Source: a virus
Virus record (IMG/VR): IMGVR_UViG_3300043313_000992
Span: 1-21,461 of that record
Length of the DNA stretch: 21,461 nucleotides
Direction: 5' to 3' (one strand)
Part shown: piece by piece, positions 6,238 through 20,669 of the stretch
Numbering within the stretch: the stretch's first letter is position 1
Layout of the letters: each line of letters opens with the position of its first letter
Position numbers and translations under genes: made by a program
The notes under the pieces: generated by a model
Seen by the model: only the letters and a program-made list of their open reading frames with translations
What the model was told of the DNA's origin: nothing
Databases searched by the model: none

Positions 6238-7635
6238 GTGCCATATTTCACCGTTACCGATTTCGCCGCCGGGCTCGACCTGCGCCGCAGCGAGCTGACC
6301 GCGCCGGCCGGCACCATGCGCTCGCTGATCAACGCCCACATCACGCCGGGCGGTGAAATAGAAAAGCGCATGGCGTTCGTGCCGTTCTGGACCTGTGACC
6401 CCGCCACCAAAGGCTTGGTGTCGGTCGATCAGAAGCTCTACACCTTCGGCCCGAACGGCCCCTACAAGACAGAACCCAGCGGCGGCCAGGACAGCTGGAC
6501 CATCGGCGTCCTCGGCCAGCAGACGCCTTCCATCTACGAGATCATCGACTACGACCTGTTCGACAACCAGGTGTTCGTCATCCTCTGGACCGACGCCGCC
6601 GGCAATGTCGTGCGCTGCTACAACGGCTCAAGCATCGTTGAGGCAAGAGGCTTCTACTGTCGCACTTACAAGACAAAAATCTACAGCGTCTCGACCACCG
6701 TGCTGTACTTCTCCAGCGTCGGCAATCCAGCGGACTGGGTCGGCACCGGCTCGGGATCGATCGACATGTCGCTCGGCGATTCCGACATGACGGACTGCCT
6801 GGCGCTGGAGGTCTACTACGACAAGCTGGCTGTCTTCTCCAAGACCGCCACGCAGCTCTGGGCGATCGATCCAGATCCGCTGAAGAACCAGTACACGCAG
6901 ACACTGCGCGAGGCCGGCTCGATCGCCTGGCGCAGCGTGATGCAGTACGGCTCCGGCGACGTGATGTATCTCGCGCCGTCAGGCATCCGCTCCTTGCGCG
7001 CGAGAAACTCATCGCTCGCTGCCGCCGTGTCCGACATCGGCTCGCCGCTGGACCCTGTCATACAAGACCTGTTCCGCATCATGGGCGCGGACTGGATGAG
7101 CGGCACCATCTCGATCCTGCAACCAGTGACCGGCCGCTTCTGGATCATCTTCCCGGATCGCATCTATGTGCTATCCGCGTTTCCGGGACCGAAGATCACG
7201 GCCTGGTCGGAATATGCACCCGGCTTCGTCATCACCGCCGCAGCCGTCTACAACAACCATGTGGTCGTGCGCGACACAGACAACATCGTCTACGCCTATG
7301 GCGGCATCTCCGACGAGGGCCCGGTCTACGACGACAGCTATGTCGAGCTGGTCTTCCCGTTCCACGCCGGCACTGATGCTGCCACCTCCAAGACCTTCAC
7401 CGCGCTGGATGCGACCTGCACCGGCGTGCCGTGGGATGTCTACATCGCGCTGAACCCGGAAGATCCTTTCGAGGAAGACTGGGTCGGCACCTTCGACGGC
7501 CCGACGTTTGCGCAAGGAAAGTTTGCGATACACGGCCACGCCACGCACATGTCGCTGCGGCTGCGTTCGCAGTCACCAGGCCCGCAGTTGCTGTCCAACA
7601 TGATCGTGCATTACCAGGTCGCGGAGAGCGGATGA
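6238..7635 (+). CDS. Tail nozzle / tail tubular-like protein
   Basis: A 465 aa strand-rich protein probably forming the short tail tube (nozzle), the counterpart of T7 gp12 or P22 gp10. It begins MPYFTVTDFAAGLDLRRSEL, and the phrase 'GLDLRRS...APAGTMRSLINAHITPGGEIEKR' (residues about 12-43, abbreviated) is the typical opening in which gene products read off a list of parameters. Repeated strand units such as DNQVFVILW, YDKLAVFSKTATQLWAI, GDVMYLAPSGIRSL and NNHVVVRDTDNIVYAYGG fit a beta-propeller body. It is shorter than T7 gp12 (about 800 aa). The start is GTG at 6238 after a G-rich stretch (GGGGGGT), and no nearby ATG fits. The stop overlaps the next ATG (ATGA), indicating coupling. Confidence 0.55.
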   Translation: MPYFTVTDFAAGLDLRRSELTAPAGTMRSLINAHITPGGEIEKRMAFVPFWTCDPATKGLVSVDQKLYTFGPNGPYKTEPSGGQDSWTIGVLGQQTPSIYEIIDYDLFDNQVFVILWTDAAGNVVRCYNGSSIVEARGFYCRTYKTKIYSVSTTVLYFSSVGNPADWVGTGSGSIDMSLGDSDMTDCLALEVYYDKLAVFSKTATQLWAIDPDPLKNQYTQTLREAGSIAWRSVMQYGSGDVMYLAPSGIRSLRARNSSLAAAVSDIGSPLDPVIQDLFRIMGADWMSGTISILQPVTGRFWIIFPDRIYVLSAFPGPKITAWSEYAPGFVITAAAVYNNHVVVRDTDNIVYAYGGISDEGPVYDDSYVELVFPFHAGTDAATSKTFTALDATCTGVPWDVYIALNPEDPFEEDWVGTFDGPTFAQGKFAIHGHATHMSLRLRSQSPGPQLLSNMIVHYQVAESG

Positions 7636-8150
7636 TCGAGATCGTCGCTGCCGATGCCGGCCACATCCGCGCGGTGCTGGCGGCGCTGCGAGAGGTTGAC
7701 GCCCGAGAAATGACCGCCTGCGCGATCGACCTCGACAAGCTGCCGGCCATCATCATGCGCCACAAGGTGTTCGCGTTCTGCGCCTGGGGCATGGAAGACG
7801 GCCCGGTCGCCATCTGGGGCATGGTGCAGCGCCGGCCCGGCGTGGGGGCCGGGTTCGCCTTCGGGACCGACCGCTGGGGGTCCGCCCTCCTCCCCATGCT
7901 GCGCCAGATCCGGGGTTTTGTGCTACCGTTCCTGGTGGCCTCGGACTATCACCGCGTCGAGGCCGCCGCTCTGGCTTACCGTTCTGATGTTGCAAACTTC
8001 ATGGAGCTGATCGGAGCCGAAGCCGAAGGCACGCTTCAGGGTTACGGCACCGCCGGCGAAGACTTCATATCCTACCGATGGCTCGCCGATGAATATTGCC
8101 AACCGCGAACTGCCTTCGCCGAAGCGGACCATCCATACGCCTCACATTGA
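7632..8150 (+). CDS. T7 gp13-like GNAT-fold virion-associated protein
   Basis: A 172 aa protein starting MIEIVAADAGHIRAVLAALR. The C-terminal part, DYHRVEAAALAYRSDVANFM (residues 105-124) then ELIGAEAEGTLQGYGTAGED and FISYRW, is the pattern I associate with the phage gp13/DUF2833 group: a strand, a helix carrying a 'new neighbour' residue series, then GFE-like and GEDF motifs of a GNAT-type fold. T7 gp13 is needed for assembling the internal core and is not known to be an enzyme. The frame is open far upstream, but ATG at 7632 is chosen because it overlaps the previous stop (ATGA), has GGAGAG just before it, and begins the first GNAT strand. Its position between nozzle and gp14-like genes matches T7. 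Confidence 0.65.
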   Translation: MIEIVAADAGHIRAVLAALREVDAREMTACAIDLDKLPAIIMRHKVFAFCAWGMEDGPVAIWGMVQRRPGVGAGFAFGTDRWGSALLPMLRQIRGFVLPFLVASDYHRVEAAALAYRSDVANFMELIGAEAEGTLQGYGTAGEDFISYRWLADEYCQPRTAFAEADHPYASH

Positions 8151-8598
8151 GGTGCGGATGGCGCAAGTCGGTGACGCAGAGAAGGTCACTGCCTTCCTGG
8201 AAGGATTCTTCCAGCGGTCGCGCTGGTCCGCCAACCTGACGTTCGATCCGGTCAAGACGCTCAACTACCTGCGGCGTGCCATTCACACCAACTACGCGCC
8301 TTACGTTCTCGCCTGGGATGGCGAGGCGATCGTCGGCTTGTGCAGCTATCATCTGTACGACGTGTTCACCAATCCGATCGCGGTGATGGACGAAACCTAC
8401 GTCGATCCGAAGTACCGCTTCACTGACCTGGGCCGCCGCATCGTCGGCACCGCCATCGAGCTGGCCAAAGCCGAGGGCTGCAAGGCCATGAACTTCCCGA
8501 TCGCCTCCGGCATGCAGCAGCAAAATGGGCTCGCCAACATGATCGGCCGCCACTTCGGCGGCGAGTATGTCGGCATGATTTTCATGGTGAGGCTCTGA
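8089..8598 (+). CDS. GNAT-family N-acetyltransferase-like protein
   Basis: Up to 169 aa, with a GNAT fold: strand/helix IEVRMAQVGDAEKVTAFLEG (residues 21-40), strands APYVLAWDGEAIVGLCSY and MDETYVDPKYR, then the acetyl-CoA loop region RFTDLGRRIVGTAIELAKAE and the late strand CKAMNFPI. The usual Q/R-x-x-G-x-G/A loop is altered to TDLGRR, so activity is uncertain. GNAT-like genes of this sort are common beside internal virion proteins of podoviruses. The ATG at 8089 gives a 62-base overlap with the gene before and no clear ribosome site. GTG at 8152 or ATG at 8158, just after the preceding stop and with GAGGTG nearby, are alternatives; the GTG keeps the first strand. The stop shares a base with the next ATG. 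Confidence 0.7.
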   Translation: MNIANRELPSPKRTIHTPHIEVRMAQVGDAEKVTAFLEGFFQRSRWSANLTFDPVKTLNYLRRAIHTNYAPYVLAWDGEAIVGLCSYHLYDVFTNPIAVMDETYVDPKYRFTDLGRRIVGTAIELAKAEGCKAMNFPIASGMQQQNGLANMIGRHFGGEYVGMIFMVRL

Positions 8599-9212
8599 TG
8601 GGTGGCAAGGGCGGCGCAACGATGCTGAACGGCATGATGGAAGGCCCCGAAGACGCGCAGGCCAGATACCAGCGCGCTGGGTCGGAGTTCAAAGAGATCA
8701 ACAACGCCCCTGGCGAACAGCAACCGCTGCCGCCGGAGTGGCTGGCCGGCGCGTTCCCGTCGGGCTCGGGGCGCTACGGTCTGCCGGGCGCGTTTGCGCT
8801 CAATGACGATCTCACGCGCCGCGATCCGTTCGGCAACGTCTACGACGGCAACACCGGCAAGATGATCAAGGAAGTCCACCCGCTGACGGGCCAGGCGGTC
8901 GGCCAGCCCTACGCCCGCGACAGCGCCACCAGCAGCGGCATGGAACCGTTCATGCCAGGCTACCAGGCTCCGTCCGCCCCGCCGGCCGAGCTGAACCTGA
9001 CCTCGCAGCCGGCCGCCGAGGCGGCCCCGGCCGCAGCACCGGCGGCAGCGGCCACCAGCACCGACCCGGCCTTGACGGCAGTGCCGGAAGCCGCACCAAG
9101 CGCCACCAATTCGACCGGGGATCTGCTAGGGGATTCCGTGCGCTCGCCTCCGGCGTACTGGTCGAACCAGAGCAACAAGGCCAAAGACAGCCTGAAGACG
9201 ACACAAACGTAG
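8598..9212 (+). CDS. MGGKGG cassette protein 1 (unknown, probable virion protein)
   Basis: A 204 aa protein of unknown function, first of three neighbours sharing short ends around unrelated centres. It begins MGGKGG and ends with LLGDSVRSPPAYWSNQ and KTTQT. Between these lie a fold-like segment, residues about 45-110 (LPPEWLAGAFPSGSGRYGLP, then DDLTRRDPFGNVYDGNTGK), and an Ala/Pro-rich linker at about 125-175. The 'DPFGNVYDGNTG' segment resembles strand-turn repeats but I recognise no domain. Its place between the gp13-like/GNAT genes and gp14-like genes suggests an internal or tail-associated virion part. ATG at 8598 overlaps the GNAT stop, with GTGAGG upstream. Confidence 0.7.
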   Translation: MGGKGGATMLNGMMEGPEDAQARYQRAGSEFKEINNAPGEQQPLPPEWLAGAFPSGSGRYGLPGAFALNDDLTRRDPFGNVYDGNTGKMIKEVHPLTGQAVGQPYARDSATSSGMEPFMPGYQAPSAPPAELNLTSQPAAEAAPAAAPAAAATSTDPALTAVPEAAPSATNSTGDLLGDSVRSPPAYWSNQSNKAKDSLKTTQT

Positions 9213-9240
9213 GAGCGCACCATGGGTGGCAAAGGCGGCG
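9210..9240 (+). repeat. Junction repeat copy 1 (stop/RBS/MGGKGG start)
   Basis: The bases TAGGAGCGCACCATGGG and the following GGCAA.GG.GGCG codons nearly match 9780-9810, differing at four positions in 31. The unit contains the stop codon of one cassette, the AGGAG ribosome site and the start of the next, so it marks the border of a duplicated gene unit. A related coding end, ACGAC(A/G)CAAACGTAG, occurs at the 3' ends of cassettes 1 and 3. Confidence 0.75.
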
Positions 9241-9782
9241 ACAGCGGCGGCGGTGGCGGTGGATCAGCGGTCTACGACCCCGAGACCGAGCACTACTATG
9301 TCAACGGCATCGCGTTGAACAACGATGGTCCCGAAGCCGGCGGCCTGTCCGGCAAGACCAAGGCGCAGATCCTGGCCGAACGCTCGCCGCCACCGGCACC
9401 AGCGGCAGCAGCACCCGCGCCGGCGATCGTCGTGCCGGAGGAGGTGACGAAGGTCGATAACACGCCGAAGCCGGCACCGCAGGTCACCGAGGCCACGGGC
9501 CCGGCGGCCAGCACCGGCGCGCAGCTGGCGCAGCCGGTCGCGGCCGATAACACTCTCAGTACCGTCGGCACGAACACCGCCACCACCGGGCCTGCCACAG
9601 GCACCACCGGCAGCACCGGAGCCACTGGCGGCACCGGGACGACCGGCGGCACCGGCACCGGCACCACCGGCGACATCCTCGGCACCGCGGTGATCAAGCC
9701 GCCGAAATACTGGGTCGGCGGCATCAACACCTACGGCAAGAACAAAGCCAACACGACCGGCAGCATCACGACCACGAAGTAG
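9222..9782 (+). CDS. MGGKGG cassette protein 2 (collagen-like, unknown)
   Basis: A 186 aa protein that starts MGGKGGDSGGGGGGS and ends ILGTAVIKPPKYWVGG ... TGSITTTK, matching cassettes 1 and 3 at both ends. The centre begins with AVYDPETEHYYVNGIALNND, a short strand-turn segment, then is almost wholly low complexity: Ala/Pro-rich at about 60-90 and a run of x-T-G triplets at about 125-150 with glycine every third residue. No catalytic motif is visible. It is likely an extended or disordered virion protein. ATG at 9222 has AGGAG at 9211-9215, with the ribosome site overlapping the previous stop codon. Confidence 0.7.
   Translation: MGGKGGDSGGGGGGSAVYDPETEHYYVNGIALNNDGPEAGGLSGKTKAQILAERSPPPAPAAAAPAPAIVVPEEVTKVDNTPKPAPQVTEATGPAASTGAQLAQPVAADNTLSTVGTNTATTGPATGTTGSTGATGGTGTTGGTGTGTTGDILGTAVIKPPKYWVGGINTYGKNKANTTGSITTTK
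9594..9674 (+). repeat. x-T-G triplet repeat inside cassette 2
   Basis: An in-frame 9-base-type repeat (variants of RCC-ACC-GGC) encodes at least seven successive x-T-G units and then GTGTTG. Glycine recurs at every third residue as in collagen-like phage proteins, with Thr where collagen often has Pro. Such tracts change length readily by slippage. Confidence 0.7.
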
Positions 9783-9810
9783 GAGCGCGCCATGGGCGGC
9801 AAGGGTGGCG
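9780..9810 (+). repeat. Junction repeat copy 2 (stop/RBS/MGGKGG start)
   Basis: Second copy of the stop, AGGAG and MGGKGG start unit, starting TAGGAGCGCGCCATGGGC. It matches the copy at 9210-9240 at all but four positions. It lies at the border between cassettes 2 and 3. Confidence 0.75.
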
Positions 9811-10130
9811 GCGGCGGGGACTACTACCAGCAACCGCCGGACACATCGGGCTACGGCACGCCGGAGGAAGCGCGGGCGTCACTCGCCCGCGAGACGCCGC
9901 TCGACATGTCGCAGTACCAGCAGACCATCAACGTACAGCGCGCGGCGGCTGACGCCACCGCGCCCGAACCACCGCCGATCGTGTCAACCGGCACGCCGAC
10001 AACCAGTCCACTCGGCACCGGCGAGAGCCTTGCCAATGCGGTGTTGAAGCCGCCGGAATACTGGAAGGGCGCGGGCATGCAGCCGCGCAAGGCGACCGAC
10101 CAATCAAGCGTCGTCACGACGCAAACGTAG
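9792..10130 (+). CDS. MGGKGG cassette protein 3 (unknown)
   Basis: A 112 aa protein, the shortest cassette. It starts MGGKGGGGGDYYQQPPD and ends SLANAVLKPPEYWKGAG ... SSVVTTQT, keeping the PPxYW box about 25 residues from the end and the final TTQT. The centre (GYGTPEEARASLARETPLDM, SQYQQTINVQRAAADAT) may hold one or two short helices, then a Pro/Thr-rich linker. No known domain is recognised. It shares 5' and 3' DNA borders with its neighbours, so it is probably a duplicate whose middle has been replaced or worn down. ATG at 9792 follows AGGAG at 9781-9785. Confidence 0.7.
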   Translation: MGGKGGGGGDYYQQPPDTSGYGTPEEARASLARETPLDMSQYQQTINVQRAAADATAPEPPPIVSTGTPTTSPLGTGESLANAVLKPPEYWKGAGMQPRKATDQSSVVTTQT

Positions 10131-10140
10131 AGGACATGAG

Positions 10141-10782
10141 ATGGGAGGAAAATCCGGTCCTTCAAACAATCAGATGGTGCAGTTCGAAATGCAGCAGGCC
10201 CAGGAGGCCAAGGCAAAGGAGAACAAGCGCCAGGCACGCCTCGACCAGGGCAAAGCCGCGATCGATTCACTATTCGGCAAGGAGAACTTCGGCGACAACT
10301 TCTATGACAAGTACCGCGTCAACGAACTGAACTACTCGCTGCCGCAGTTGCACCAGCAGTACGACACCGCGAAGAACGCGATGACTTACGACCTGGCGCG
10401 CGCTGGCACGCTGCGATCGACCGCTGCTGGATATGCCCAAGCGCTGCTGGAAGGCCAGAACGCTGTCAACGAAGGCGGCATCCGCGCCAAGGCAGACACA
10501 GACACCGCGGCGTTGCGCAACAGCATCGCGAGCCAGCAACAGCAGGCCTACAACCAGCTCTACGCCACCGAAGATCCGACTGTGGCGGCGAACACCGCGG
10601 CCAACAGCGTGGCCAACGCGCAGCTGACGCAGCCTAATACTGGAGCATTGGGCGATCTGTTCAAGCCGATCGCCATCGGCCTCGGCTCGGCGATCGCACC
10701 GGCGTATGGTGCGCAACAAGCGAACGCCTACCTGAACGCGCCGTCCGGCCGGCAGCAGGGTTCTCAGACCAACACGGCATAG
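10141..10782 (+). CDS. Internal virion (core) protein with MGGK start
   Basis: A 213 aa mainly helical protein starting MGGKSGPSNNQMVQFEMQQA. The segment LFGKENFGDNFYDKYRVNEL (residues about 43-62), NYSLPQLHQQYDTAKNAMTY and DLARAGTLRSTAAGYAQALL is a pattern I know from phage proteins coded beside gp14-like core proteins, in which an aromatic 'FYD' box precedes a 'PQL..QY..A....YALARAG' helix. The C-terminus has a Gly/Ala-rich hydrophobic helix (DLFKPIAIGLGSAIAPAYGA, about 174-193) that could touch membrane during ejection. It likely belongs to the internal core. The MGGK start is shared with the preceding cassettes but the PPxYW box is absent. ATG at 10141 follows AGAGGA. Confidence 0.65.
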   Translation: MGGKSGPSNNQMVQFEMQQAQEAKAKENKRQARLDQGKAAIDSLFGKENFGDNFYDKYRVNELNYSLPQLHQQYDTAKNAMTYDLARAGTLRSTAAGYAQALLEGQNAVNEGGIRAKADTDTAALRNSIASQQQQAYNQLYATEDPTVAANTAANSVANAQLTQPNTGALGDLFKPIAIGLGSAIAPAYGAQQANAYLNAPSGRQQGSQTNTA

Positions 10783-10790
10783 GTTGATCC

Positions 10791-11480
10791 ATGTGCGACC
10801 CGATCAGCATCATCGGCCTGGGCCTCTCCATCGGAATGGCGGCGGCGAACTACTCCGCGCAGGAGGAGATGGCCAACCAGCAGCAGTCGGCGAACGACAG
10901 CTGGGTGGCCTACCAGAGGCGTCAAAGCCAGGAGTTCCAGAAGCGCGACGAGGAGCTGCGGCGCAACGCGGATGCTGCGAGGACAGCGGCCACCAGCGAA
11001 CTGACTGTCGAGAAGCAGAACAAGGCGCAGGAAAACGAACAGGCCAGACTGACGACCGCGCTCACGCCGGAGGACATCGCCAACGCGGCCAAGGGCGATC
11101 CGAACGCCATCGCCGGCATGATGCTGTCAGGCCAGCAGCACATGGCCGACGATGTCAAAGGCGGCATCCACTCGCGGATTCAACAAGCCGCTGCCGAGGC
11201 GCGCGATCGGCTCGCAGCACTCGCCGCGGTTCAGTCTTACGGCGGTTCGCAGTACGGCCTGACCAACCGCGCGAATACAATTTTGAACGCTTCCGGCCAG
11301 GACATCCGCCTGGCCGGCAACGAGCGCGCGGGCCAGCTCGCGGCTTACAACGTCGCCAAGGCGGTCGAACCGATCAAGATTGCACAGCATGGCGGCCAGG
11401 CACTCGGCGCGCTGGCCGGCACTGGCGCACAGATCGCCGGCGGCGGGCTCGGCACCGCGCTGGCGCGCGGCATAGCGTAG
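10791..11480 (+). CDS. Internal virion protein, T7 gp14-like
   Basis: A 229 aa helical protein starting MCDPISIIGLGLSIGMAAAN. The Met-Cys-Asp-Pro opening followed by a hydrophobic glycine-rich helix (residues 5-20) is typical of gp14-like core proteins. In T7, gp14 leaves the capsid and enters the outer membrane as part of the DNA-ejection channel. The middle is a long charged helix (YQRRQSQEFQKRDEELRRNA, AARTAATSELTVEKQNKAQE), then GGIHSRIQQAAAEARDRLAA. The C-terminus is again Gly/Ala-rich (GGQALGALAGTGAQIAGGGL). A 235 aa reading frame from 10784 overlaps it entirely, but has Arg/Gly-rich out-of-frame composition and is rejected. ATG at 10791 is 8 bases after the previous stop with TAGGT upstream. 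Confidence 0.7.
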   Translation: MCDPISIIGLGLSIGMAAANYSAQEEMANQQQSANDSWVAYQRRQSQEFQKRDEELRRNADAARTAATSELTVEKQNKAQENEQARLTTALTPEDIANAAKGDPNAIAGMMLSGQQHMADDVKGGIHSRIQQAAAEARDRLAALAAVQSYGGSQYGLTNRANTILNASGQDIRLAGNERAGQLAAYNVAKAVEPIKIAQHGGQALGALAGTGAQIAGGGLGTALARGIA

Positions 11481-15437: not shown

Positions 15438-18248
15438 TTGGGCTACCTTGAAAACCAGGCGGTGCAGCGAGCGGCTCTCCGCCGCCGCCTGCTCAATGGT
15501 ACCGCCGGCGATGCCCCGCCGCCGGAAGGTCGTTTACCTGGTTTCGGCCAGGACACCGTGGCGCTGCTTCAGAACCTGGGCGTCAACCTCGGCGTGCCGA
15601 TGGGGCCGCGAGGGTTGCCGCCCGGCGTCGGGCCGCAGGGCGAGTTATCGCTCGCGCCGAAGGGCGTCAACGTCTCGCAACCGTCCGAATTGAGAGTGTC
15701 ACCGCACGCGGAAGGCCGGCGGCAGAGCGGCGGTGAAGGCCAGCAGGGCGGCGGAGGGGGCGACCTCGGTGGCGTCCTTGGAGGAATTTTCAAGAACGCG
15801 CGCGACAGCGCCATCCAGAACGCGAAGGCCGGACAGGGCCAACAGCCAGGCGGCGGCGCTAGCGGCCCGACCGGGCCGGCGCGGCTGCGCGATGCGGCCA
15901 CCCGCGGCAACTCGCCAGAAGGGCGATCGGCCAAGGCGCGCGAGCTGATCCCCGGCCTGCGGCCCGGCATCGACGCCGCACAGGCAAGGCCGGGCGAAGC
16001 CGCCGCCAACGCCTACCAAACAGAGCAACAAGGTGGCCGCGGGGTGGTTGGCGTCGAGCGCGGCGGCGCGGGCTACAAGGCCGACATGGACTACCTGTCC
16101 GACCACGGTGGTCACGCCACCATCATGAAGGACGGCAAGAAAGTGAACGTGCGGGTCGATACGCCCGGTGCTTACGGCGCGCTCGACCCCGAGCTGGCGG
16201 CCCGCCTGCGGGCGGCCGGCGAGGCTTACGAGAAGGAAACCGGCAAGCCCCCGCAATACGGCGAGTTCTCCCGCGGCGAGGACGTGCAGAAGACCTACTG
16301 GGAAGAAAGCGCGCACGGTACCAAGTACGCCGCCGCCCCTCCCGGCCGATCGAACCACCAGAAGGGCGGTGCCGGCGATCTCCCGGCAGGCGGATTCCGC
16401 GACTGGCTGAATGCCGGCAACAAGGACAAGTTCGGCGTGCATTTCCCGGTCAAGGGCGATGAGCCGCATGTCGAGGTCAACCGCGCCTTCAAGGGCGGCA
16501 ACTTCGCCAACAGCGGTCCGGCAGCGCCGGGCTGGGACACCTCGCAAACCCCGCAAACCCCGCAGGCGGACACGCAATGGCCGGGTGCTGGCGAGACGAC
16601 GTCGGCTGACAGGATCTCCGCGCGGCCGGTGAACACCGCCCCGCCGGGCCAGGTCACGCCGGAGCTGATGAAGTCCATCAGCCAGCTGGAGAGCGGCGGC
16701 GACCCCAACGCGGTGCGCGGCTCCTACAAAGGCTTGCACCAGATCACCGATGAGACGTTCCGGCAGTATGGCGGGAAGGGCTCGATCTTCGATCCGGCCG
16801 AGAACACGCGCGTGGCGCAGCTGGCCACGGCCGACACCGCGCGCAACCTGTCAGCCCAGCTCGGCCGGCCGGTGACGGCCAGCGAGATCTATCTCGCGCA
16901 CCAACAGGGCTATGGCGGCGCGGCGGCACACCTGAAGAACCCGAACCAGCCGGCCTGGCAATCGATGCTGTCCACCGGCGAAGGCCAGCAGAAGGGCGAA
17001 GCCTGGGCCAAGCAGGCGATCTGGGGCAACCTGCCGGAGGAGGCGCGCGCCCGCTTCGGCAAGGTCGAGAACGTCACCAGCGGCGACTTCATCAATCACT
17101 GGAAAGAACGCGGTGCCGCTGCCGGGATCACCGATGCCCCGCGCGGGCCGATCGATCCGAAGGCCGGCACGGTCGAGATCGCGCCAGCGCGCACCGCCGC
17201 TGCCGCACCGCCGCCGCCGCCGGCTGTCGCGGCACCTCCACCCCAACCTGCGGTGCCGCCTGCCCCGGCGGTAGCGCCGCAGCCTGCTGCCCCAGTGGCT
17301 CCTGCCCAGCCGCCACAGGCAGCGGCTCCGGCCCCGGCTCCCGCTCCGGCACCCCCGCCGCGGTCGGCCGGGGTCGTTGCCGCGGACAAGTTCCTGAACG
17401 GGACGGTTGGCGATGCCGTGCGCCAGGTCGCGCCCTGGCAGGCCGCGCTGCTCCCCAACGAATACGCCAAGATGACCGTCTGGCAGGCCATGAACGATCC
17501 GAAGATCGGCAAGATGGTCAAGGACAACCTCGGCGAACACCTCGGCAAGTTCGGCGTCAAACAACCGGACCTGGACCAGGCGGTCAAAGAGCGCACAACC
17601 GGCAAGCGCACCGAGGCGCTGCCCGGCACCTCCGAAGGCCTGCTCCAGCAGGCCGAAGGAAAACCTGTTGACCTGAATCAGCCTGCTGCACAACGTTACG
17701 CCGAGGCCCAACCGGCAACCATGACCGATGCCGGGCCGCAGCCGGCGCAACAGCAACCCGGCCAGCAACTGCCGGATTCCTTGAAGGCCGCGATCACCAA
17801 TGTGTTCGGCGGCGAGCAGGGCGGCCCCATGGCCGCCGCTCCGCCGCCGCCAGCAGATCCGATGTCGATGCCGGTATTGCCCTCCCAGGTCGCACCGGCG
17901 GCACCGGGTGCGCCGGGTGGGCCGCCCCCACCCGGCGGTCTGGCTCCTCCAGGGCTCGCGCCGCAGATGATGCTTGATGCAAGTCAAGGCAGTCCGATCG
18001 CGATGATGGGGCTGTCCCCGATCCAGCCTGTGCAGAACGTGCAGATGTCCACGCCGCTGGTTGACAGCATGGCCACGCAGCAGCCTTTTGCTTCTCAAGG
18101 CCTGTCACCGATTCCCTTCGCCGAGATGGCCGGCTGGGGCTGGGGCAGTCCGATGTCTGGCGGGCTCTTTGACGGTGGTGGCGGTGGCGGCTTCAGCGGC
18201 CTGGACATGGGCGGCATGGGCGGCGGGTTTACGTTCAGCGGCGGCTAG
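15438..18248 (+). CDS. Ejection protein with M15-type peptidase and lytic transglycosylase domains
   Basis: A 936 aa virion protein, probably the wall-opening part of the ejection machine (compare T7 gp16, which carries one transglycosylase domain). Residues about 216-355 look like an M15 D,D-peptidase: SNHQKGGAGD places H307 and D314 in the SxHxxGxAxD pattern, and EPHVEV gives H344 as third zinc ligand. Residues about 410-520 look like an SLT transglycosylase: ISQLESGGDP puts the catalytic Glu at 418, with GLHQIT and later HQQGYGGAAAHL. A Pro/Ala linker spans about 582-642, and the C-terminus is Gly/Met-rich. The start is TTG at 15438, right after the previous TAG, with AGGAGG at 15426-15431; no better ATG exists. 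Domain calls come from motifs, not a search. Confidence 0.75.
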   Translation: MGYLENQAVQRAALRRRLLNGTAGDAPPPEGRLPGFGQDTVALLQNLGVNLGVPMGPRGLPPGVGPQGELSLAPKGVNVSQPSELRVSPHAEGRRQSGGEGQQGGGGGDLGGVLGGIFKNARDSAIQNAKAGQGQQPGGGASGPTGPARLRDAATRGNSPEGRSAKARELIPGLRPGIDAAQARPGEAAANAYQTEQQGGRGVVGVERGGAGYKADMDYLSDHGGHATIMKDGKKVNVRVDTPGAYGALDPELAARLRAAGEAYEKETGKPPQYGEFSRGEDVQKTYWEESAHGTKYAAAPPGRSNHQKGGAGDLPAGGFRDWLNAGNKDKFGVHFPVKGDEPHVEVNRAFKGGNFANSGPAAPGWDTSQTPQTPQADTQWPGAGETTSADRISARPVNTAPPGQVTPELMKSISQLESGGDPNAVRGSYKGLHQITDETFRQYGGKGSIFDPAENTRVAQLATADTARNLSAQLGRPVTASEIYLAHQQGYGGAAAHLKNPNQPAWQSMLSTGEGQQKGEAWAKQAIWGNLPEEARARFGKVENVTSGDFINHWKERGAAAGITDAPRGPIDPKAGTVEIAPARTAAAAPPPPPAVAAPPPQPAVPPAPAVAPQPAAPVAPAQPPQAAAPAPAPAPAPPPRSAGVVAADKFLNGTVGDAVRQVAPWQAALLPNEYAKMTVWQAMNDPKIGKMVKDNLGEHLGKFGVKQPDLDQAVKERTTGKRTEALPGTSEGLLQQAEGKPVDLNQPAAQRYAEAQPATMTDAGPQPAQQQPGQQLPDSLKAAITNVFGGEQGGPMAAAPPPPADPMSMPVLPSQVAPAAPGAPGGPPPPGGLAPPGLAPQMMLDASQGSPIAMMGLSPIQPVQNVQMSTPLVDSMATQQPFASQGLSPIPFAEMAGWGWGSPMSGGLFDGGGGGGFSGLDMGGMGGGFTFSGG

Positions 18249-19904: not shown

Positions 19905-20669
19905 TCAGACTGTACGCAATTTACGCTGACGCTGACGCAACGATACAAAACCAATGCCGGCGAAGCCGGCGATCATCATGAACCAGGTCGAAGCCTCGGG
20001 AACGGCTTCCGCCTGCGGCGTCGGCACCAGGAAGAAGCTGTCGGGGCCGTCATTCGCGCCCGAGATGCGCGCGAAGAAGATGATCTGATCACCTGGCAGG
20101 ATATCGCCACGCTGCAAGTTGAAACCGCTCAACGTGTAATCCGGGAAGCCGGTGCCGTTGTTCTGCGAGGGCACCAGCACGCCACCGGGCTCTGGCGAGA
20201 ACGCCGCCAGCACCGTGTGCTGCGTGAGGTTGAGGAAGTAGAAGCTCTCCAGCGTCTGCGGCGTGCCGGTATCGTTGACATCGAAGCCGACGGTGAAGGC
20301 TAGCGCCGGGTCGTTGTTGGCTAGCAGGAAGGCCCGCAGGAATGAGCCGTCGTAGCCGGTGCCAATGGTGTCGAAGCCGGGATTGGCTCCACCGACAACC
20401 GCCGTCGAGAAGTAAGCGAGGTCGCTTTGGCCGCCGTTGTTCTTGAAATCGGTGTAACCGAAGTTGGCGGGCTGTTGCGGCTGGTTGTCGCCGCAGATGA
20501 TGCATGGCGCGTTCAGCGGCTGGTTGCCGCCGGGCACCGTCGGCGTCAGTGACAGGGTGGTGGCTCCACCAGTGGTCCAGAGCTGGTTGCCGATAACGAC
20601 GTCGGCAGCTGCGGGATCGGTGAACGCGATCGACAGCAGGCCGACGGCCAGTAACGCTTTTCTCAGCAT
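19905..20669 (-). CDS. Secreted PEP-CTERM (exosortase-sorted) protein
   Basis: A 254 aa reverse-strand protein. The signal peptide is MLRKALLAVGLLSIAFTDPA, with probable cleavage after PAAA (about residue 22). The mature part is strand-rich with Asn, Gly and Thr-rich loops, a CIICGD pair, and segments such as FTVGFDVNDTGTPQTLESFY, FPDYTLSGFNLQRGDILPGD and QIIFFARISGANDGPDSFFL. The end is a PEP-CTERM signal: VPEASTW (from residue 223), a hydrophobic stretch FMMIAGFAGIGFVSL, then RQRQRK. Such tails are recognised by exosortase, which moves and trims the protein during export, often together with exopolysaccharide. The Ala in place of the usual Pro (VPEAST for VPEPST) is a variant. ATG at 20669 has GGAGG on the reverse strand. 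It is an unusual gene within a phage. Confidence 0.75.
   Translation of the reverse strand: MLRKALLAVGLLSIAFTDPAAADVVIGNQLWTTGGATTLSLTPTVPGGNQPLNAPCIICGDNQPQQPANFGYTDFKNNGGQSDLAYFSTAVVGGANPGFDTIGTGYDGSFLRAFLLANNDPALAFTVGFDVNDTGTPQTLESFYFLNLTQHTVLAAFSPEPGGVLVPSQNNGTGFPDYTLSGFNLQRGDILPGDQIIFFARISGANDGPDSFFLVPTPQAEAVPEASTWFMMIAGFAGIGFVSLRQRQRKLRTV

Follow-up and report, generated by a model that had tools for sequence, protein, structure and literature searches.

The window analysed here is the whole of positions 1–21,461 of IMG/VR record IMGVR_UViG_3300043313_000992 (21,461 bases) and, judged from its sequence, is the late region of a podovirus-like phage. Three tandem genes, which we call cassettes, lie between a GNAT-fold acetyltransferase gene (GNAT2) and an ejection-type gene (gp14a). 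The features of the region are as follows.

From 77: portal gene of the late region
From 2744: scaffold gene of the late region
From 3835: major capsid protein (MCP) gene, PHROG 9953
From 5481: adaptor gene of the late region
From 6238: gene of the nozzle/packaged-DNA-stabilisation type, late region
7632..8150, + strand: GNAT-like gene 1, in the N-acetyltransferase position (compare T7 gp13 and P22 gp14)
8089..8598, + strand: GNAT2, GNAT-fold acetyltransferase (PF00583), the left border of the array in relatives
8598..9212, + strand: cassette 1, 204 aa; MGGKGG, an orphan centre, an Ala/Pro linker, TGDLLGDSVRSPPAYW and SLKTTQT
9198..9239, + strand: border repeat copy 1; codons for TTQT, stop, Shine-Dalgarno GGAG, ATG and GGKGG
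9222..9782, + strand: cassette 2, 186 aa; MGGKGG, a centre beginning AVYDPETEHYYVNG, GTTG repeats, TGDILGTAVIKPPKYW and GSITTTK
9780..9809, + strand: border repeat copy 2; stop, Shine-Dalgarno GGAG, ATG and GGKGG codons
9792..10130, + strand: cassette 3, 112 aa, the conserved core copy; begins MGGKGGGGGDYYQQPPDTSGYGTPEEA
10116..10130, + strand: 3'-end repeat of cassette 3, ACGACGCAAACGTAG
10141..10782, + strand: gp14a, flanking ejection-type gene, 213 aa; MGGKSGPSNNQ start, all-helical model
10791..11480, + strand: gp14b, second ejection-type gene, 229 aa; hydrophobic MCDP start with a weak resemblance to T7/epsilon15 gp14
3' of gp14b: ORFs of 549, 775 and 936 aa in the late block
15438..18248, + strand: the 936-aa protein, a gp16-like ejection component with a transglycosylase SLT domain, which closes the late block

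Judged by capsid protein, the closest relatives in culture are Microcystis phage Mae-Yong1326-1, at 53%, and Rhizobium phage RHph_N65, at 40%; in both of these a GNAT gene is followed directly by a gp14a homologue, without cassettes. Towards the end of the window, a 254-aa ORF on the minus strand (19905–20669) starts like a signal peptide and carries a PEPxxWA-CTERM sorting signal at its C-terminus (NF035944, E 9e-7; the score of 28.7 bits falls short of the curated cut-off, which is 35). It seems to encode an exosortase-type cell-surface protein, which appears unusual on a phage contig and may be a clue to the host.

The cassettes are adjoining ORFs and all three open with MGGKGG. Near the C-terminus each carries the box L-x3-V-x2-PPxYW (LGDSVRSPPAYW, LGTAVIKPPKYW and LANAVLKPPEYW, in order), and the proteins end in TTQT, TTTK and TTQT, respectively. 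The repetition extends to the DNA, with 26 of 30 positions identical between the borders at 9210–9239 and 9780–9809, and with ACGAC[A/G]CAAACGTAG present at two 3' ends (9198–9212 and 10116–10130). The sizes, coordinates, shared motifs and repeated borders that a first-pass annotation had reported were all verified. In composition-preserving shuffles of the proteins, PP.YW fell within the last 40 residues at a frequency of 0.6–2.3e-4 per protein and MGGKGG stood at the start at 0.5–7e-5 per protein; the three cassettes together are therefore not the product of chance, and fortuitous similarity was rejected. Cassette 3 has a weak, mostly disordered predicted structure (pLDDT 59.7), and cassette 1, used as a query, found no relative in IMG/VR.

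Related loci were retrieved by the major capsid protein (80 loci) and by the core cassette (64 loci), which together yielded 122 distinct family members. The cassettes form a real, previously undescribed gene family, carried by short-tailed, uncultivated phages that are for the most part metagenome-derived. The array is always flanked by GNAT2 and the helical ejection-type gp14a: across the assessable loci, an HMM of the C-terminal box (C-box) gave 116 matches within the GNAT2–gp14a interval and none elsewhere. The recurrence of same-ended cassettes beside a gp14-like gene, which the annotation had named as the support to look for, is thus borne out across the family, and the box is present in the relatives as well as in the window. 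There it takes the longer forms LGxPIxxGGxIxxP and TGDxLGGAVLxPPxYWVGG, followed by a GSLTTTQT tail. Gaps between cassettes are mostly 9–10 nt and contain the Shine-Dalgarno sequence. An MGGK start is found in 98 of the 122 members and one member is truncated; the other 23 start differently (mainly MPW... or MPY...) and retain the C-box, so that GGKGG alone is not obligatory. Cassettes with a start of the MPYRVYDGYG... type carry three YDGYG-type repeats, which make up a small conserved module (L020, L026, L027, L029, L031, L034, L041 and L070).

The number of cassettes varies between zero and four per phage, and in 40 complete arrays there were 0, 1, 2, 3 and 4 cassettes in 7, 4, 6, 10 and 13 arrays, these being HMM-detected copies, with some diverged members overlooked by the HMM. 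In a capsid and nozzle tree, to which copy numbers were assigned by hand from the ORF lists, a branch with support 85/89 separates the five cassette-less IMG/VR phages from all others; the deep phages L068 and L078 have two diverged members each. Two of the loci, L020 and L041, lie on one contig (IMGVR_UViG_3300021082_000020, 94,958 bp) as related but different copies of the late region, and this contig is either a chimeric assembly or two genomes joined.

The annotation had also proposed that the centres are swappable, and this holds for the non-core cassettes but not for cassette 3. No array of the main clade lacks the last cassette; orthologues of cassette 3 are 48–62% identical in 17 relatives, and their alignment (A1) contains 24 invariant columns and shows the centre to be conserved as well. 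Apart from this core member, centres are not conserved across the relatives. The non-core cassettes have only their ends in common (alignment A3), with centres that split into many unrelated clusters, and a profile comparison aligned them with the core cassettes over only 38 C-terminal columns (98% probability). Cassette centres are rich in Ala (22%) and Pro (16%), and specific modules recur among them, including ITWGPLARANGWGWD in a cluster of 14 members and a YDGYG module in nine.

Comparison of closely related arrays captured these changes at base level. Two loci, L003 and L007, are 95–100% identical in nucleotide sequence over most of the GNAT2–gp14a interval (~3 kb), the exception being a central stretch of ~190 bp in cassette 1, where identity falls to 30–40%. 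In L016 a third centre, homologous to that of L060 (~70–80% in nucleotides), is joined to the same C-terminal half. Whole cassettes are also gained or lost: L026 has one more than L025, which amounts to 472 bp and has the direct repeat AACCAA[A/G]TAGG at each of its two junctions; L062 likewise has one more than L057. Three neighbouring cassettes in L011 have a common linker and C-box and different N-terminal modules, a pattern from which we infer duplication followed by module replacement. Since direct repeats from the cassette ends lie at gain/loss junctions, and since swaps are found inside near-identical DNA, the conserved ends appear to act as recombination seams. Together with their recurrence in the same place, these events lend strong support to the original description of a duplication series held by short end motifs.

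Resident cassettes are nonetheless under purifying selection, each resident version being conserved while centres change mainly through swapping and duplication. For orthologous pairs pN/pS ranges from 0 to 0.65 and is mostly below 0.4; within orthologues it is lowest in the N-terminal tag (0.10, versus 0.29 in the centre). It is the protein sequence of the tag that is maintained, since the GGK codons differ at third positions, and a constraint on the DNA alone was ruled out for the start.

The same start is found on the neighbouring protein, with gp14a opening with MGGK in 20 of 20 relatives. This shared start, the core status of cassette 3 and the longer boxes of the relatives go beyond the earlier annotation. 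Two distant cassette-less phages have a similar start (MGGKSGDD in L239 and MGKKGGG in RHph_N65), which indicates that it predates the arrays, and its absence from the gp14-type proteins of T7, epsilon15 and BPP-1 makes it a feature of a sub-lineage. GSxTT-like ends are present on 16 of 27 distinct gp14a tails and on no other late protein, bar a fortuitous match of the MCP to the loose pattern. Profile comparison did not find the C-box in gp14a and left homology between cassettes and gp14a past the start unsupported. No relatives of gp14a were found in 84,980 prokaryote genomes, and there is therefore no prophage context. An MGGK[GS]G start with a good Shine-Dalgarno sequence also occurs on many unrelated phage ORFs (L226, L233, L243, L251, L275, L240, L250, L270, L296 and others), several of which resemble virion proteins (tail-tip-like, or small coiled-coil proteins of 113–120 aa); it is possibly a wider N-terminal habit of virion proteins.

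The order GNAT, gp14-like, ... transglycosylase is the same as in T7, P22 and epsilon15 (orders compared: T7 12-13-14-15-16; P22 10-26-14-7-20-16; epsilon15 GNAT gp13, gp14, ...), and the array fills precisely the gap that separates the GNAT-type genes from those of gp14/gp7 type. GNAT-type genes hold the same place in Microcystis, Rhizobium, epsilon15 and phiGT1 phages; hhalign matches of gp14b and the GNATs to T7 and P22 genes were weak. The all-helical model of gp14a (pLDDT 79.5) aligned collinearly with T7 gp14 chain 8e4g_a over 126 of 127 residues (T7 residues 19–144; Z 8.6), which ranked second among the PDB chains aligned by structure (Foldseek E 5). This is no more than suggestive of kinship, since helical models can reach such Z scores without it. 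No sequence homology of gp14a to P22 gp7 or T7 gp14 was detected, it matched neither PF25688 nor PF24072 (P22 gp7 and T7 gp14 match their respective models), and a PDB profile search with gp14a gave no matches. T7 gp14 (PF24072) shares the genome position of gp14a but lacks the GGK start and has no sequence match; the cassettes themselves are unlike T7 gp14, and none of the three matches the Pfam models for gp7 or T7 gp14.

A parallel to the start is provided by P22 gp7. According to the P22 record, host OpdA takes off the first 20 residues of gp7, and the protein minus this leader starts KGGKGGADK. The 15-kDa virion-assembled fragment of gp7 was sequenced as Lys-Gly-Gly-Lys-Gly, and residues 21–154 are enough for procapsid binding and incorporation (PMC8402733). 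KGGKGG follows the 20-aa leader in the 80 relatives that we fetched, and also in Sf6. The mature N-terminus of P22 gp7 (PF25688) and Sf6 gp11 is therefore comparable with the MGGK[GS]G of the cassettes and gp14a; the gp7 gene follows the gene-14 position, and the neighbouring gp14a is likewise about 210–230 aa. As read from the sequences, the likeness is a five-residue resemblance and not homology.

The annotation knew of no named family with this layout, and our searches agree: Pfam, PHROGs and NCBIfam gave no consistent family for the cassettes, tblastn found none in 50,697 cultured-phage records, and no paper describing such an array was found in the literature searched. Matches to HC2 and spanins were rejected because they involved few members or reflected the composition of AADK repeats, and DnaK-type PDB matches of the core cassette in a profile search were attributed to chance. 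The cassette modules showed no similarity to anti-defence proteins.

We propose, with about an even chance of being right, that the cassettes are accessory internal or ejected virion proteins that are packaged by means of their end tags and work in the manner of the T4 internal proteins. An expandable array would thus head the ejection-protein genes of this podovirus lineage, encoding proteins on the plan of an MGGKGG tag, an exchangeable small module, a flexible Ala/Pro-rich linker and a C-terminal box (LGxPIxxGG / TGDxLGGAVLxPPxYWVGG / GSLTTTQT). The end tags would dock the cassettes in the assembling head together with the ejection proteins, an idea already put forward in the first-pass annotation and one that we infer from gene position and from the start being common to the adjacent ejection-type protein and the virion form of P22 gp7. 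The proteins would probably be delivered along with the ejection proteins, leaving the virion with the ejectosome by virtue of linkers flexible enough to permit passage through the tail. Their variable modules may target host-specific factors, namely barriers or defences situated in the envelope or in the cytoplasm. This would account for the fast turnover of modules and copy number despite purifying selection on each.

The T4 internal proteins would be the closest working analogue, with one targeting tag serving many cargoes. T4 Ip1–3 have only an N-terminal packaging leader in common and block different restriction enzymes (PMC12373910; PMC3012670). Like the cassettes, they are several small proteins per phage in which a short common end tag sits on otherwise unrelated sequence, and the sets vary among related phages (PMC12373910, PMC3012670) as the arrays do. 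The principle of a tag with variable cargo is thus already known from T4. Unlike the T4 tag, which is N-terminal only and processed, the cassettes have both ends in common, exchange whole modules and are arranged as a single tandem array within the ejection region of a podovirus, and they are known from their genes; no homology to T4 internal proteins was detectable. What is new is that the tag has two ends, that the genes stand in tandem in a podovirus ejection region and that the exchange of modules is visible. As is proposed for the cassettes, crassvirus cargo proteins are kept inside the capsid and expelled by way of the tail (PMC10172136), but these are large and single-copy whereas the cassettes are tagged and interchangeable. 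In a more elaborate and distinctly improbable version, the array would be a plug-in system for injected effectors, such that any module placed between GGKGG and TGDxLGGAVLxPPxYW/GSLTTTQT is loaded into the head and delivered, with the two upstream GNATs modifying the tag lysine or N-terminal glycine. Two GNAT-like genes (7632–8598) lie immediately before the genes with the GGKGG start, and the invariant lysine of the tag is a candidate substrate for them.

The exchange of N-terminal modules above a constant C-box would also suit external decorations of the head or tail, in which the box is an anchor, the Ala/Pro-rich centre a stalk and the swappable N-module an exposed adhesin for host or environmental surfaces. 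Fast module turnover is typical for host-range parts, and no tail-fibre gene was recognised within the window. We nevertheless consider this unlikely, because gene order puts the array among the ejection genes, and because the part kept most strictly is the N-terminal tag, which would be the free end and is also present on ejection-type gp14a. Moreover, the cassettes had no consistent Pfam or PHROGs match to a fibre, lectin, Ig-like or decoration domain, an absence that does not amount to exclusion.

It is similarly doubtful that the cassettes act outside the virion as morphogenesis helpers, that is, peptides akin to chaperones or scaffolds whose task would be to load the ejection proteins, perhaps in concert with the adjoining GNATs. 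The disordered core copy, the location of the array directly between GNAT and gp14a, and the GNAT-type or gp13/gp14-type genes at the equivalent place in T7, P22, epsilon15 and phiGT1 would all be consistent with such a role, which the core copy could fill by itself. A conserved assembly step is, however, a poor fit for arrays of as many as four divergent copies whose centres are unrelated, and for a clade that has no cassettes. Low-complexity linkers, motifs at both termini and ejection-type neighbours could also describe structural tapes of the ejectosome, flexible linkers of the periplasmic conduit whose centres differ merely in length, and T7 gp16 has been described as a 'molecular tape' (PMC8954989). 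This we regard as very improbable, because many centres are specific conserved modules under purifying selection, such as ITWGPLARANGWGWD and YDGYG, and not spacers.

If the tags of the proposed accessory virion proteins are packaging signals, this lineage of small podoviruses would have solved the T4 internal-protein problem a second time and independently. The array would then serve as a ready catalogue of quickly exchanged payloads, probably aimed at barriers or defences of the host. The tags would also offer a minimal, testable definition of how a protein enters a P22/T7-type head, a question that is open for the P22 ejection proteins. Were the plug-in version true, this would be a modular phage system of protein-delivery tags in which recombination seams exchange the payloads. 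Even if the cassettes prove to be external, they provide a clear case of natural module exchange among phage genes of the virion region, in which the breakpoints can be read to the base.
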